Shown: positions 1-37,477 of the stretch, one piece after another
Layout of the letters: each line of letters begins with the position of its first letter
Position numbering within the stretch: position 1 is the stretch's first letter
Virus record (IMG/VR): IMGVR_UViG_3300042868_004757
Coordinates: 1 to 37,477 of that record
Origin: a virus
Reading direction: 5' to 3' (one strand)
Length of the DNA: 37,477 nucleotides
Notes under the pieces: generated by a model
Databases searched by the model: none
What the model was told of the DNA's origin: nothing
Seen by the model: only the letters and a program-made list of their open reading frames with translations
Program-made: the position numbers and the translations under genes

Positions 1-134
1 CTGGCACACCATCAGCAGACGGTAGCGGCCCGTGGTACTGGAAGGAATGGCTTGGTGACCACAACGGCGATAGGCAAGCAGCCACCCGCAGCGCCATAGT
101 GAGAGCAGCAGCGGCTATCGGGGAAACGCTATGA
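1..134 (+). CDS. 3' part of the conserved phage protein at 37118 (second copy)
   Basis: This is the end of the reading frame whose complete form lies at 37118-37462, repeated because of the terminal redundancy. Translation from base 3 gives the last 44 residues, ending in GETL, whereas the right-hand copy ends in GEKL: the single mismatch changes Lys to Thr. It should not be counted as a separate gene. The stop overlaps the ATG at 131 by four bases (ATGA). Confidence 0.85.
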   Translation, partial: GTPSADGSGPWYWKEWLGDHNGDRQAATRSAIVRAAAAIGETL

Positions 135-149
135 CCTACCCCACATGGC
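1..149. repeat. terminal redundancy, left copy
   Basis: This stretch is the same as 37329-37477 at 148 of 149 positions; the only difference is C at 127 versus A at 37455. The gene starting at 37118 and the operon it belongs to continue without a break across the join, so the molecule is a circle of about 37,328 bp or a circularly permuted linear genome. An assembly overlap would normally be exact, so the mismatch suggests population variation or a base-call error. A true packaged direct terminal repeat cannot be excluded from sequence alone. Confidence 0.9.
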
Positions 150-20026: not shown

Positions 20027-20152
20027 CTACCAAGGCGCGAATTGAGCGAACCAAATCATAAACCGGTAGGCCGCATATCCTGCGACACCTCCAGCAGCAA
20101 TGACTGCGATTGTGAGTGCTGCGCTTACGATGTTGATTTCAGTGTTTGACAT
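20027..20152 (-). CDS. 41-aa membrane peptide at the head of the late operon
   Basis: A short frame (MSNTEINIVSAALTIAVIAA then GGVAGYAAYRFMIWFAQFAPW) begins nine bases after a near-perfect AGGAGGA ribosome binding site. Residues 8-24 form a clear hydrophobic membrane span with a small-residue GGVAG stretch, followed by an aromatic, weakly amphipathic end. It is the first gene after the structured non-coding region and precedes terS by 63 bases. Function unknown. A membrane peptide in this place may prepare the host envelope or exclude other phages. Confidence 0.72.
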   Translation of the reverse strand: MSNTEINIVSAALTIAVIAAGGVAGYAAYRFMIWFAQFAPW

Positions 20153-20174
20153 TCTTTCCTCCTGTTGGTTATTG

Positions 20175-20440
20175 GCCCTCGTCTTTCCGAGGCGTCACCG
20201 AGCGTCATATCCAGAATAACCCCGCAGCGGGAGGCCGTGTTAGTTGATGGCGGCAGGTGCTGAGATTACCTGCTTTCTGGGACTACTCCTTTGCCGTTGA
20301 CCCACCCAGAATGAACGGGACATTGCGTATCAGCCTACGCATTCACCATCACGGCTGCGGACTGTCGGTATCAGCCACCCACTTAAGGGCTAGGCCAACA
20401 GGCTCCAGCACCAATCCGCATGCGTGATAGTTGATGGTGC
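20175..20440 (-). ncRNA. cluster of hairpins in the late leader, putative structured RNA
   Basis: No credible gene occurs on either strand here. Seven inverted repeats were found. 20177-20181 pairs with 20188-20192, 20221-20224 with 20228-20231, and 20253-20258 with 20268-20273 (GCAGGT/ACCTGC). 20275-20281 pairs with 20305-20311 (TTCTGGG/CCCAGAA), and 20324-20329 with 20336-20341 (TGCGTA/TACGCA). 20353-20357 pairs with 20372-20376, and 20408-20413 with 20435-20440 (GCACCA/TGGTGC). GTATCAGCC and TAGTTGATGG each occur twice. The region would be transcribed on the minus strand from the promoter at 20761 as a leader. Alternatives are a cos/pac site beside terS or an antitermination element; no known RNA family was recognised. 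Confidence 0.42.
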
Positions 20441-20513
20441 GCGAGTGATCTCAGCGCGGCTTCTTCAATTGTTTGTTTGGCAGAAGTGATTAAAAATCTA
20501 AGCCCGTTCCATC

Positions 20514-20571
20514 AATCAAACCGCCTGTACTTTGGCTGCATCAACGTTAATTAATGCCAAGCGGCTTGATT
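20514..20571. repeat. large imperfect inverted repeat in the non-coding region
   Basis: The arm at 20514-20536 (AATCAAACCGC, seven extra bases, then TTGGC) pairs with 20556-20571 (GCCAAGCGGCTTGATT). They flank an AT-rich loop containing ACGTTAATTAATG. It could be an operator, packaging or transcription signal. The surrounding stretch 20441-20709 shows no other supported feature apart from this repeat and an ATTGAGAC/GTCTCAAT pair (20687-20694 and 20756-20763). Confidence 0.4.
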
Positions 20572-20709
20572 CATGCATCCATTCTCAAAATTGCGCTAAT
20601 GTTTAAGGCTCGGCGCTTTTGATGCTTGCACTGCCAAAACAATCGGGCTGCCAGTGGTCGCACTTAAGAGAATTGTCTAGTCTAGGATTGAGACTATCGG
20701 AGGGAGATA

Positions 20710-20793
20710 ATGAGCCGCCCTTTGTTCTATTTTACCATTCTATTCGTTGTTTCTTGTCTCAATTATCGGGCCTGCTTTTGCGTCTGTGTATAG
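20710..20793 (+). CDS. possible 27-aa lipoprotein-like peptide, opposite strand
   Basis: The frame encodes MSRPLFYFTILFVVSCLNYR followed by ACFCVCV. The ATG is preceded by a strong GGAGGGA at good spacing. The sequence has a hydrophobic segment ending VVSC, reminiscent of a lipobox, and three more Cys near the end. It is oriented against both flanking operons and no promoter is obvious. It may be a real regulatory or toxic peptide, or chance; the good ribosome binding site is the main argument for it. Confidence 0.25.
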   Translation: MSRPLFYFTILFVVSCLNYRACFCVCV

Positions 20794-20805
20794 GGGTTTA
20801 CCCTA
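20761..20805 (-). promoter_or_regulatory. palindrome-promoter cassette F (late promoter candidate)
   Basis: A 15-bp palindrome, TAGGGTAAACCCCTA on the minus strand (20805-20791), is followed 37 bases from its start by CGATAATT (20768-20761), giving a GATAAT -10. A weak -35 (TACACA) lies 17 bases upstream of it. The arrangement matches the cassettes at 23854, 28640, 33927 and 34353. The palindrome overlaps the end of the last early gene (stop at 20798). Transcription would enter the ~600-base leader, the 41-aa peptide gene and the virion genes. Confidence 0.6.
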
Positions 20806-20896
20806 ACAAAAGCAAAATAAATCCAAAAGCGCCCACCGCTGAAGTGCCCAGATAGAGGAAAAACGCTAGTAGTGCGTCTAGTTGGTCGTCGTTCAT
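20798..20896 (-). CDS. 32-aa membrane peptide, last gene of the early operon
   Basis: The frame MNDDQLDALLAFFLYLGTSA then VGAFGFILLLLG has an acidic N-terminus and one long hydrophobic helix. Its ATG overlaps the preceding stop (ATGA at 20893-20896). Its final Gly codon and stop lie inside the palindrome of cassette F. Small single-span peptides of this kind are often host-takeover or exclusion factors; no family was recognised. Confidence 0.62.
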   Translation of the reverse strand: MNDDQLDALLAFFLYLGTSAVGAFGFILLLLG

Positions 20897-21156
20897 GCCG
20901 TTTCCTTTGTTGGCACTGGTTGCCATGTGAGTGTTTCGTCTTGGCCGTCGCTGCCTCGGATTGGGCGCAGCTCTGAGTCATCTAGCGATAGCCAACAAGA
21001 AGTGCCGTCAAGGTCAAGAAGAACAGGCTCCGTAATCCATTGGTCTCCGTGTATGCGCTCTACCGCCGTGACAATCTTTCCTATGTGACCTTTATTTTTG
21101 TCGCCAACACCACGCACAGCAACAACAATGCCTAGTTCACCTTGCTTGCAGTTCAT
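20893..21156 (-). CDS. 87-aa hypothetical phage protein
   Basis: The protein starts MNCKQGELGIVVAVRGVGDK and continues with beta-rich sequence (GHIGKIVTAVERI, ITEPVLLDLDG, SCWLSLDDSELRPI). It looks like a small beta-barrel of the kind found in short phage accessory proteins. The start at 21156 has GGGAGG five bases upstream and overlaps the previous stop (ATGA), so the longer upstream extension is rejected. Function unknown. Confidence 0.68.
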   Translation of the reverse strand: MNCKQGELGIVVAVRGVGDKNKGHIGKIVTAVERIHGDQWITEPVLLDLDGTSCWLSLDDSELRPIRGSDGQDETLTWQPVPTKETA

Positions 21157-23853: not shown

Positions 23854-23897
23854 ATTGTCTAGCACTTTTTCACGCTTGCGAATTAGGGGAAACCCTA
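23854..23897 (-). promoter_or_regulatory. palindrome-promoter cassette C
   Basis: On the minus strand TAGGGTTTCCCCTA (23897-23884) is followed 36 bases from its start by TAGACAAT (23861-23854), giving a GACAAT -10. A weak -35 (TTCGCA) sits 17 bases upstream of the hexamer, immediately beyond the palindrome. The palindrome lies inside the last codons of the preceding gene (encoding RVSPNSQ). It drives the 61-aa gene, ninB and the nuclease block. Confidence 0.68.
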
Positions 23898-28607: not shown

Positions 28608-28802
28608 CTAGACAGTCCGTAAACCGCTAGGGATAGGCCAATTATCGTTAGCTTGGTCATTTTGTGAATTAGGGTTTACCCTAGATAGTTCGTTTTCGCT
28701 AAGGTCGCCAGTCAGAAAAAGCGCGTAGCTGATTGAGTAAATCGAGTGCGCCGCGCCTTCTCTTGCTTCGTCTAGTAGGTTGTTTGCTTGGGGGTGGTTC
28801 AT
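28608..28802 (-). CDS. 64-aa protein carrying the cassette E palindrome
   Basis: The protein starts MNHPQANNLLDEAREGAAHS and continues IYSISYALFLTGDLSENEL. The tail (SRVNPNSQNDQANDNW) is encoded by the palindrome and the promoter. The start overlaps the previous stop (ATGA at 28799-28802), so the longer upstream reading is rejected. The tail motif RVNPNSQ parallels RVSPNSQ of the gene at 23870, because both encode the operator plus the -35 region. Function unknown. Confidence 0.64.
   Translation of the reverse strand: MNHPQANNLLDEAREGAAHSIYSISYALFLTGDLSENELSRVNPNSQNDQANDNWPIPSGLRTV
28640..28683 (-). promoter_or_regulatory. palindrome-promoter cassette E
   Basis: On the minus strand the perfect 14-bp palindrome TAGGGTAAACCCTA (28683-28670) is followed 36 bases from its start by CGATAATT (28647-28640), giving a GATAAT -10. 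A TTCACA -35-like box lies 16 bases upstream of it. It shares CCCTAATTC-R-CAA with cassette C beyond the palindrome. The cassette is inside the 64-aa gene and would drive the accessory run starting at 28578. Confidence 0.65.
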
Positions 28803-34352: not shown

Positions 34353-34396
34353 TAGGGTTTCCCCTAATACCCACCCTCAAATTTCTGCTAGACAAT
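34353..34396 (+). promoter_or_regulatory. palindrome-promoter cassette A
   Basis: TAGGGTTTCCCCTA (34353-34366) is followed 36 bases from its start by TAGACAAT (34389-34396), giving a GACAAT -10 (34391-34396). The -35 position carries only TACCCA, 17 bases upstream. It lies right after a terminator and drives the recombination/SSB operon. Confidence 0.7.
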
Positions 34397-34896: not shown

Positions 34897-35511
34897 ATGA
34901 GCGTTTACAAAGCAATCAATGCAGTTCAGGCCGAACTGTCTAAAAACGGCATCACAAAAGACCGCACCAACACCCAAGGCAGCGGCTACAAGTTCCGAGG
35001 GATCGACGATGTTTACAACACCATTGCGCCAATGCTTGCGCGTCATGGGCTGTGCATCTTGCCTCGCGTGTTGAATCGCACCATTACAGAGCGAACATCC
35101 CAAAAGGGCGGGGCTTTGTTTTATGTGGTGGTCGAATCTGAATTCGATTTTGTCTGCGCAGAAGATGGCTCAAAGCACACTGTTAAGACCTTTGGCGAAG
35201 CTATGGACAGCGGCGATAAAGCGACAAACAAAGCCATGAGCGCGGCTTACAAATACGCATGTTTTCAAGCGTTCAGCATTCCTACTGAGTCAGACAATGA
35301 CGCAGACGCGCACACTTACGAAGTGAAGCCAAGCGCAAAAACCCTTGAGCTGCAAGAGAAGGCAATCAACATCATTGCGCACGTGAAGGGCGGCAATGCG
35401 CGAGATGAGGCGCAAGCCCTGTCTAAGCTGAATGAGAAGGCTCTAAACGCCATTTGGGAACTGCTTGACGCAGAGACACAAGACAAGCTGTCGGAGGCTT
35501 GGCCAGCATGA
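34897..35511 (+). CDS. erf: ERF-family single-strand annealing protein
   Basis: This 204-aa protein matches the ERF superfamily (PF04404). It has the N-terminal helix MSVYKAINAVQAELSKNGIT, the core YKFRGIDDVYNTIAPMLARH and GLCILPRV. A central GEAMDSGDKATNKAMSAAYK follows, then YACFQAFSIPT, a strongly conserved ERF signature. The C-terminal domain has KLNEKALNAIWELLDAE. It anneals homologous ssDNA, aiding genome circularisation and recombination, with SSB and NinB as likely partners. The ATG at 34897 has a purine-rich site upstream; an ATG at 34882 is less well placed. Confidence 0.9.
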   Translation: MSVYKAINAVQAELSKNGITKDRTNTQGSGYKFRGIDDVYNTIAPMLARHGLCILPRVLNRTITERTSQKGGALFYVVVESEFDFVCAEDGSKHTVKTFGEAMDSGDKATNKAMSAAYKYACFQAFSIPTESDNDADAHTYEVKPSAKTLELQEKAINIIAHVKGGNARDEAQALSKLNEKALNAIWELLDAETQDKLSEAWPA

Positions 35512-36011
35512 CCGCGCTTTACAACCTTGCCAATCAGTATCTAGAGCTTGCCAATACGCTTGCTAACGGCGACTTTGATGCTGAGACAGTGGCAGACACC
35601 ATCGAGGCCAGCGGCATCACTGATGAGCTATCCACAAAGGCGCAAGCCTTGGAATATGTCGCCCGTAGCTCCGAGGCTCACAATGAAGCTATTGATGCGG
35701 AGATTGAACGACTCAAGGCACTCAAAGAGCAGCGAACCAAGATCGCGGCCAATGTGCGCAAGTACATCTACGACAATATGCAACGGATGCAGATTGAAAA
35801 GATTACTTGCCCACTGTGCGAAATGTCGATTGTGAAGAACCCGCCAGCGGTGGAAATGTACGACGCCATGAGCATACCTGCGGACTACATGCGGCAGCCT
35901 GAAACGCCGCCGCCACAGCCCGACAAGGTGAAGATTTTGAAAGCACTCAAAGCCGGTGAAGAAGTGACCGGCGCACGATTAACCCAAACCACGCGACTGC
36001 GTATCAAATAA
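35508..36011 (+). CDS. Gp157-like protein
   Basis: This 167-aa protein starts MTALYNLANQYLELANTLAN. It has a long coiled coil (HNEAIDAEIERLKALKEQRT) and a beta-rich C-terminal end with MSIVKNPPAVEMYDAMSIPA and DYMRQPETPPPQPDKVKILK across residues ~115-155. This is the Siphovirus Gp157 family (PF05565), usually found beside ERF/Bet and SSB genes and linked with phage resistance in streptococci. Its function remains unclear. The start overlaps the erf stop (ATGA). Confidence 0.85.
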   Translation: MTALYNLANQYLELANTLANGDFDAETVADTIEASGITDELSTKAQALEYVARSSEAHNEAIDAEIERLKALKEQRTKIAANVRKYIYDNMQRMQIEKITCPLCEMSIVKNPPAVEMYDAMSIPADYMRQPETPPPQPDKVKILKALKAGEEVTGARLTQTTRLRIK

Positions 36012-37121: not shown

Positions 37122-37462
37122 CCGACCGCGAATTACTGGAAAGCGCGGCTAAGGCTGCGGGCGTGGACATTAAAAGCATATGGACACTAGATCGAGGCTT
37201 TCTTAAAGGCGCATGGAACCCGCTTACAGACGATGGCGACGCGCTGCGGCTTTCCGTTAAACTGCTTATTCAAGTCATTCAAGACCGCATGGGCTTCGTC
37301 AAAGTGGGTTGGAGTGTTGGCTTTGAGTCTGGCACACCATCAGCAGACGGTAGCGGCCCGTGGTACTGGAAGGAATGGCTTGGTGACCACAACGGCGATA
37401 GGCAAGCAGCCACCCGCAGCGCCATAGTGAGAGCAGCAGCGGCTATCGGGGAAAAGCTATGA
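37118..37462 (+). CDS. 114-aa conserved phage protein (WNPLTDDGDALRL motif)
   Basis: The protein starts MTDRELLESAAKAAGVDIKS and contains GAWNPLTDDGDALRLSVKLL and a C-terminal DRQAATRSAIVRAAAAIG. The WNP-x-x-DDGDALRL motif with an AATRRAIVRAAAE-like end is a widespread small phage family, function unknown. The last part is duplicated at 1-134 because of the terminal redundancy. The stop overlaps the next start (ATGA), whose gene is complete only at 131-241. Confidence 0.78.
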   Translation: MTDRELLESAAKAAGVDIKSIWTLDRGFLKGAWNPLTDDGDALRLSVKLLIQVIQDRMGFVKVGWSVGFESGTPSADGSGPWYWKEWLGDHNGDRQAATRSAIVRAAAAIGEKL

Positions 37463-37477
37463 CCTACCCCACATGGC
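37329..37477. repeat. terminal redundancy, right copy
   Basis: This is the copy of bases 1-149 with A at 37455 instead of C. It includes the end of the 114-aa gene and the first 19 bases (37459-37477) of the 36-aa gene that is complete at 131. Confidence 0.9.

Follow-up and report, generated by a model that had tools for sequence, protein, structure and literature searches.

We find that the gap of about 600 nt ahead of the late operon in the window (the whole stretch of viral DNA analysed here, 37,477 nucleotides, IMG/VR record IMGVR_UViG_3300042868_004757) is best explained as the gene of a modular late-leader RNA whose tRNA-like and tmRNA-like parts would act through their shape on host factors for tRNA or stalled ribosomes, most likely as mimics or decoys, a reading in which we have fair confidence. 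The RNA is structured and its stems covary, relatives of it are widespread, folded cassettes are exchanged among them, many phages carry it in the position of a late leader, and a subset contains tmRNA-like tags of 10 codons.

The gap ahead of the late operon

Late genes and most early genes of the window are read leftward, and the gap extends for about 610 nt from the ATG of a membrane peptide at 20152 to the stop at 20763 of the next upstream leftward ORF (20763-20981). The leftward ORFs within it are all shorter than 60 aa. A rightward ORF of 78 aa (20619-20855) overlaps the edge of the gap, and this block is not coding, since its version in relatives contains single-base indels and insertions of 87, 94, 98, 119, 140, 141 and 157 nt. 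A coding reading of the gap was rejected on the same grounds (single-base indels, and insert lengths indivisible by three), and the gene-free gap reported in the preliminary description is real. At the level of the whole genome, a direct terminal repeat of 149 bp (99%; window 1-149 and 37329-37477) identifies the contig as a closed circular assembly, so that the genome is probably complete. A Mu Gam-like end-protection protein (PHROG 253) is encoded at 35499-36011 (+), at the right end of the otherwise leftward genome.

The four inverted repeats named in the preliminary description are all present where it placed them, and three have a clear place in the fold described below: GCAGGT/ACCTGC forms the T-arm-like hairpin, TGCGTA/TACGCA the D-arm-like hairpin, and TTCTGGG/CCCAGAA a stem inside the variable insert. 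The repeat GCACCA/TGGTGC is probably incidental. As for the direct repeats of 9-10 bases, a repeat is there, in a weak form (an 18-mer at 78%). Taken by themselves, the inverted repeats are only mildly above chance, with 5 pairs of 6-nt arms compared to 1.6 expected and 13 of 300 dinucleotide shuffles equalling that number, and the folding energy of the gap is moderately low (z = -2.3 to -2.7). The significance of the gap RNA thus comes from its homologues rather than from the repeats alone.

Parts of the RNA in the window

The window's late operon would have as its leader a structured RNA of approximately 570 nt, the parts of which are collected in Table 1. Transcription would proceed from a promoter near 20734-20729 into the late genes; the putative promoter has no clear -35 box, and the sequence further upstream of TAAAAT diverges in L090, L124, L187, L190, L192 and L194. 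The 12 relatives in the window's lineage share a common framework with compensatory changes, which in the 5' part are seen at alignment columns 75/95 (GC, CG, AU), 76/94 and 125/165 (4 of 12). The interior of the region at 20431-20515 is common to the window, L090, L187, L190, L192 and L194. Partial copies of module D occur in L003 (93% over 44 nt) and L090, and its hairpin UGACxCCUCGGxAAGAGACGAGG is present in the RNAs of E. coli prophages. The junction between the RNA and the membrane peptide is the same in L090, L187, L190, L191 and L192.

Table 1. Features of the predicted RNA and its surroundings in the window.
Feature	Position	Strand	Remarks
Putative -10 box TAAAAT	20729-20734	-	upstream edge of the conserved block; kept in L090, L124, L187, L190, L192, L194
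5' framework domain: stem 1 with two hairpins, slot 1, long hairpin AAUCAAGCCGC...GCGGUUUGAUU	20509-20686	-	12 distinct relatives
Slot 1, empty in the window	20574-20576	-	inserts of 87-157 nt in relatives (tRNA-like domains, module B, others)
Region closed by TTGATGG (20515-20509) / CCATCAA (20437-20431)	20431-20515	-	perfect 7-bp inverted repeat
Module B: ATCACG-CATG-CGGAUUG ... CAGUCCG-CAGC-CGUGAU	20348-20428	-	
tRNA-like domain (module A): acceptor-like stem UGAUGGUG/CGCCAUCA, AA linker, D-arm-like hairpin, insert, T-arm-like hairpin	20245-20351	-	
D-arm-like hairpin UGCGU-AGGCUGAU-ACGCA	20324-20341	-	
Variable insert in place of the anticodon arm, 7-bp hairpin UUCUGGG/CCCAGAA	20274-20323	-	
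T-arm-like hairpin GCAGG-UAAUCUCAGCA-CCUGC	20253-20273	-	UCAGC pairs with GCUGA of the D-like loop
Module D with 5' extension ...GGGGUUAUUCUGGAUAUGACGCUCGGUGACGCCUCGGAAAGACGAGGGCC	20174-20241	-	near-identical block in L191, L194
Shine-Dalgarno AGGAGG (20163-20158) and 41-codon membrane peptide	20027-20163	-	the RNA runs into them

A palindrome-like motif, TAGGGTTTACCCTA, has four copies in the window (20792-20805, 23884-23897, 28670-28683 and 34353-34366) at two mismatches or fewer, compared to 0.14 expected, and one of these lies just upstream of the putative promoter of the RNA. The motif is a candidate operator of a phage regulator and perhaps belongs to the promoter cassettes described earlier.

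Fold and covariation of the tRNA-like domain

By manual inspection, the design of the family reads stem - GGTG - AA - hairpin TGCGn-AGGCTGAT-nCGCA - insert of 23-165 nt - hairpin GCCGG-AGATCAGCA-CCGGC - CACC - stem. The acceptor-like stem carries the T-arm-like hairpin directly on it and is joined to the D-arm-like hairpin by a linker of two bases; the insert replaces the anticodon arm, and the loops of the two hairpins are complementary (GCUGAU with AUCAGC; GCUGA/UCAGC). A T-hairpin stacked on the acceptor, a short linker, a D-hairpin and a loop-loop contact together place the domain in the tRNA-like structural class; with its anticodon arm replaced, the window's copy is not itself a tRNA. 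ARAGORN makes no tRNA call and Rfam no tRNA match in the window, and there is no CCA at the acceptor end of the window's copy. Across the family, 37 of 119 copies have a CCA that starts 8-10 nt past the T-stem, compared to about 3 for each of the other offsets; closely related E. coli members account for part of this excess.

Compensatory changes, which the preliminary description had proposed to look for in homologues, are abundant. In an alignment of 50 domain sequences (the window being one of the 50), 95% of pairs are standard, double changes number 100 compared to 29 in shuffles, and the covariation score is 0.243 compared to 0.092. The covariation of the acceptor pairs is matched by only 0-2 of 200 phylogeny-aware simulations, and the fifth stem pair of the D-arm-like hairpin occurs across homologues as CG, UA, GC, AU and UG. 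A covariance model built from the relatives recovers the window's copy on the minus strand (20361-20235) with 81.1 bits and an E-value of 2.4e-20, where the window is among the 50 training sequences and the E-values of such a custom model are rough.

The loop-loop pairs are 97.7% standard; the search pattern of the main set fixes the kissing-loop bases, and loop covariation therefore falls outside what the main set measures. Two loop-free scans yielded mostly chance matches, plus L292 and L300, which show a matched loss (U in one shortened loop and A in the other) with GCGAU and AUCGC retained. The predicted contact between the D and T loops is thus one that a matched deletion, G-U changes and invariance argue for, rather than many exchanges.

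The tRNA-like shape has independent support from slot exchange in E. coli prophages. There, in one slot of an otherwise conserved RNA with a promoter-like TTGACA...TATTACC at one end and a terminator CCCGGTTCGTCCGGGC-T7 at the other, the family-type domain alternates with domains having an ordinary T-loop GGUUCGAAUCC and a D-arm UAGCUC...GAGC. The alternate body, GTTGTGGT-TA-GCTC...GAGC...CAGGTTCGAATCCTG-CACCACAAC, is ordinary tRNA-like in T-loop and D-arm. Three of these bodies are listed by NCBI as 'pseudogenic tRNA-Gly' (L160 3189-3301, L175 893-1007, L177 894-1008); they are tRNA-like modules of the RNA that carry an insert for the anticodon arm. Near the element, 10 tRNA-like bodies with the T-stem stacked on the acceptor were found (about four of them true tRNA genes), compared to 0 in 1.68 Mb of control sequence.

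Homologues and genomic position

With relaxed blastn settings, unrelated phages among the phage records were found to share short non-coding stretches of strong similarity, and these were often adjacent to tRNA genes. Two short queries matched 241 and 147 of 50,697 phage records (the core in 241), among them P1, HK620, mEp460, Klebsiella phage Magnus and Pseudomonas phages ZC08 and YA3. The 21-base core consensus is found in at least 119 viral contigs and 33 genomes, mostly of Proteobacteria, and the covariance model locates 163 copies in 158 related loci other than the window. Related RNAs are thus present in hundreds of unrelated bacterial viruses. Strong covariation together with these hundreds of homologues bears out the suggestion in the preliminary description that the gap encodes a new phage ncRNA, on the minus strand. 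Of 274 genomes from the bacterial class to which G001 (Buttiauxella) belongs, two have a match and one of these is the centre genome itself; the element is thus carried by phages and sparse in hosts. True tRNA genes lie within 1 kb at 15 of 144 loci, all on the same strand, compared to 0 of 225 control zones.

The position of the element in many phages is that of a late leader, as had also been suggested from its place ahead of the window's late genes. In HK620 (element at 15.6-16.3 kb) it lies between the annotated late promoter pR' with qut and the late terminator tQ. A Q antiterminator gene precedes the element on its own strand in 37 loci, with its end 267-1094 bases away and never anywhere else. 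Within the next 2.5 kb, terL is found on the strand of the element in 14 loci (that of the window among them) and on the other strand in 12; in E. coli prophages the element separates terL from portal and is encoded on the opposite strand. P1 has three family-type tRNA-like domains between dmt and tciA, around two of its tRNA genes, which stand among the modules (OP279344, whole element at about 64.95-66.46 kb; L182 2390-3222). Some copies are far from late genes.

Exchange of cassettes

Cassettes identical to one another turn up in flanks that are unrelated. In 27 locus pairs the insert is nearly identical and neither flank can be aligned, and conversely 118 of 129 locus pairs with alignable upstream flanks have unrelated inserts. 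What occupies a fixed position of an otherwise conserved RNA can be module B, a plain hairpin, the family-type domain or a tRNA-like domain whose T-loop is normal, and the position can also be empty. Slot 1, for example, is empty in the window, L090, L068 and L194, contains canonical tRNA-like domains in L124 and L189 and similarly closed inserts in L188 and L191, and is occupied by module B in L187 and L192. The copy of module B that L187 has there is near-identical to the window's own, which sits elsewhere in the window's RNA. The order of modules also changes, being B-A-D in the window and D-A in L090, with both RNAs ending on the Shine-Dalgarno of the same membrane peptide. Module B has 22 matches near the element compared to 0 in 1.76 Mb of control sequence, and its stems covary (6 different outer and about 16 inner variants). 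The exchange of inserts suggests diversifying pressure.

Just upstream of the tag of L199, the plain hairpin GTTGTG-GCGA-CACAAC replaces the tRNA-like domain, with L196 and L197 similar, as a minimal version of an empty slot. A further recurrent module, AAGCGGATGCTGTG...CACAGACGCAGCTTC, flanks the core in L002, L016, L023 and L030.

tmRNA-like tags in a subset

A subset of the family, including HK620, P1, Bas80, Magnus and others, carries within the same RNA a module in which the frame behind a resume-codon-like AUAAAUGCAAACGA runs for exactly 10 codons to its stop in 72 of 72 distinct contexts. The encoded tags end in -AA or -VA in all 72 (e.g., ANDEQFLAVA, ANDDVVLMAA, ANEEMYLAVA), where the search pattern fixed the first two codons and constrained only the next two. 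The tag of P1, ANDDLMMVAA (L182 1766-1792, OP279344), was found outside this pattern. Weak Rfam tmRNA matches (E 0.0009 and 0.005 in 611 nt), below gathering scores, are in line with the tag module, and pseudoknot-like pairings 3' of the tag appear, judged by eye, to covary. The window's copy contains no tmRNA-type tag reading frame, and it shows neither the G-U acceptor pair of tmRNA alanine identity nor a free CCA (its acceptor is UGAUGGUG/CGCCAUCA, with no CCA after it). A permuted tmRNA in the window was considered since GGGGTTATTCTGGATATGACG resembles a tmRNA 5' end, and was rejected because the order and the partner strands do not fit and GGGGTTATTCTGGATATGACG recurs as a separate block.

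Proposed function and alternative explanations

Our interpretation is a mosaic RNA, built of a clade-specific framework with fixed slots and exchangeable folded cassettes, whose signature would be the tRNA-like domain with a variable insert. It would be made along with the late genes, with pR' as the promoter in lambdoid relatives, and probably in bulk. Through their shape, its tRNA-like and tmRNA-like parts would act on host factors that handle tRNA or stalled ribosomes, with RNase P, EF-Tu, SmpB and the ribosome, and tRNA-cutting or tmRNA-dependent defences as candidate targets, most likely as a mimic or decoy. Rapid swapping of cassettes would then mirror an arms race with those host factors. 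A function as a tRNA/tmRNA mimic, and perhaps as a decoy, is what the sequence comparisons suggest to us; the domain is embedded in a longer RNA whose acceptor end may not be free for charging or binding, and a tRNA-like shape can have purely structural reasons.

Some of the same observations would be expected of a scaffold RNA like GOLLD or ROOL, one that folds, perhaps multimerises via kissing loops, and has inserts as payloads or disordered linkers. The family too has kissing loops, tRNA neighbours and variable inserts, yet there is no Rfam match to either RNA, the loop-loop contact is explained inside one domain, and module number and order vary strongly (three copies in P1, one in the window), which is a poor fit to a fixed cage; we regard a scaffold as rather unlikely. 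We also find it unlikely that the RNA is a cis-acting leader controlling termination or translation of the late operon, be it through a TGATGG/CCATCA folding switch or through antitermination like that of HK022 put, a short RNA that follows an early promoter immediately and acts in cis to suppress terminators. The leader position in the window and HK620, the RNA's run into the Shine-Dalgarno of the first late gene, and the two possible pairing partners of TGAT (20351-20348), module B and the 3' side of the domain itself, are consistent with cis control. However, the RNA of E. coli prophages is a separate opposite-strand unit with its own promoter-like and terminator-like sequences, that of P1 stands among tRNA genes, and close relatives differ in which modules they have and in what order. 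The put-like action on RNA polymerase considered in the preliminary description is further weakened by HK620, where Q and qut are also present.

A cos or pac packaging site, offered there as an account of the repeats, is scarcely credible. The element adjoins the small terminase gene in the window, like many packaging sites, but its position varies widely among homologues and in many phages is far from terminase. Homologues are found within tRNA arrays, behind Q and close to repressor genes, with those of P1 between dmt and ban. The conservation of the element concerns RNA base pairing, and the 149-bp repeat of the contig ends shows only circular assembly. It is very unlikely as well that we see the debris of a decaying phage tRNA array. 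The tRNA-like shapes, tRNA neighbours and pseudogenic tRNA calls would suit such debris, and this reading is already contradicted by compensatory changes and invariant loops, which mean present selection on pairing, and by tags that keep exactly 10 codons. Among the earlier readings, then, the ncRNA and the leader held up and the put-like RNA and packaging site did not, and the tRNA-like architecture and exchangeable cassettes had been missed.

Returning to the modular late-leader RNA with mimic-like parts, we tentatively extend it to a broader possibility, that unrelated tailed phages build their late leaders from a shared, recombining pool of cassettes (tRNA-like, tmRNA-like, module B and true tRNAs) whose products would act in trans as tRNA/tmRNA mimics to defeat defences that target tRNA or are linked to ribosome rescue. 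Such shared-pool RNAs would be an RNA counterpart of mosaic anti-defence gene islands. If our interpretation is correct, hundreds of sequenced phages, P1 and HK620 included, carry a large structured RNA absent from Rfam, which in the genome records examined is left unannotated or appears as spurious small ORFs or 'pseudogenic tRNA', and which evolves by swaps of whole folded domains between fixed slots. It would also tie together the tRNA genes and long leaders seen at the heads of late operons, in a form testable in standard E. coli K-12 systems, and a tmRNA-like tag in late leaders would open phage interference with, or use of, trans-translation to direct test.

Comparison with known RNAs

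At gathering and relaxed thresholds, an Rfam search of the window returned only a chance 'sok' match (E 7.2), and the element has no Rfam family. No description of the family was found in Rfam or in the searchable open-access literature, which includes part of bioRxiv and few subscription journals. The Rfam covariance models of GOLLD and ROOL match neither the window nor the homologues. These two are large phage ncRNAs located near tRNA genes, with kissing loops and variable linkers possibly holding tRNAs (PMC12286853). The family resembles them as a large structured RNA of phages and prophages, often near tRNA genes, with kissing loops and a variable linker, and differs from them in lacking an Rfam sequence or structure match, in having tRNA-like domains as building blocks, and in slots that swap their contents.

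With tmRNA (RF00023, RF04321, RF01850) the family has in common a tRNA-like domain with an insert for the anticodon arm and, in the tagged subset, a tag ORF with pseudoknot-like pairings. In the family, however, the tag precedes a complete tRNA-like domain on its 5' side instead of being enclosed by it, and the window has no tag. Mycobacteriophage DS6A has a CDS-less tmRNA for which inhibition of host tmRNA was reported in E. coli (PMC11915505); this phage tRNA/tmRNA-like RNA is a precedent for mimicry, and it differs in being short and single-domain, with no modular leader.

The genomic positions of the family's homologues do not fit the put RNA of HK022. A match in position is found in the lambdoid late leader (pR'-tR') RNA and in the tRNA genes known at the late-operon heads of the P22-like phages L and Sf6 (PMC8022706), which occupy the same genomic position as the element of HK620. 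Compared with these, the family's RNA is neither a plain tRNA nor a short terminated leader; it is both structured and modular.
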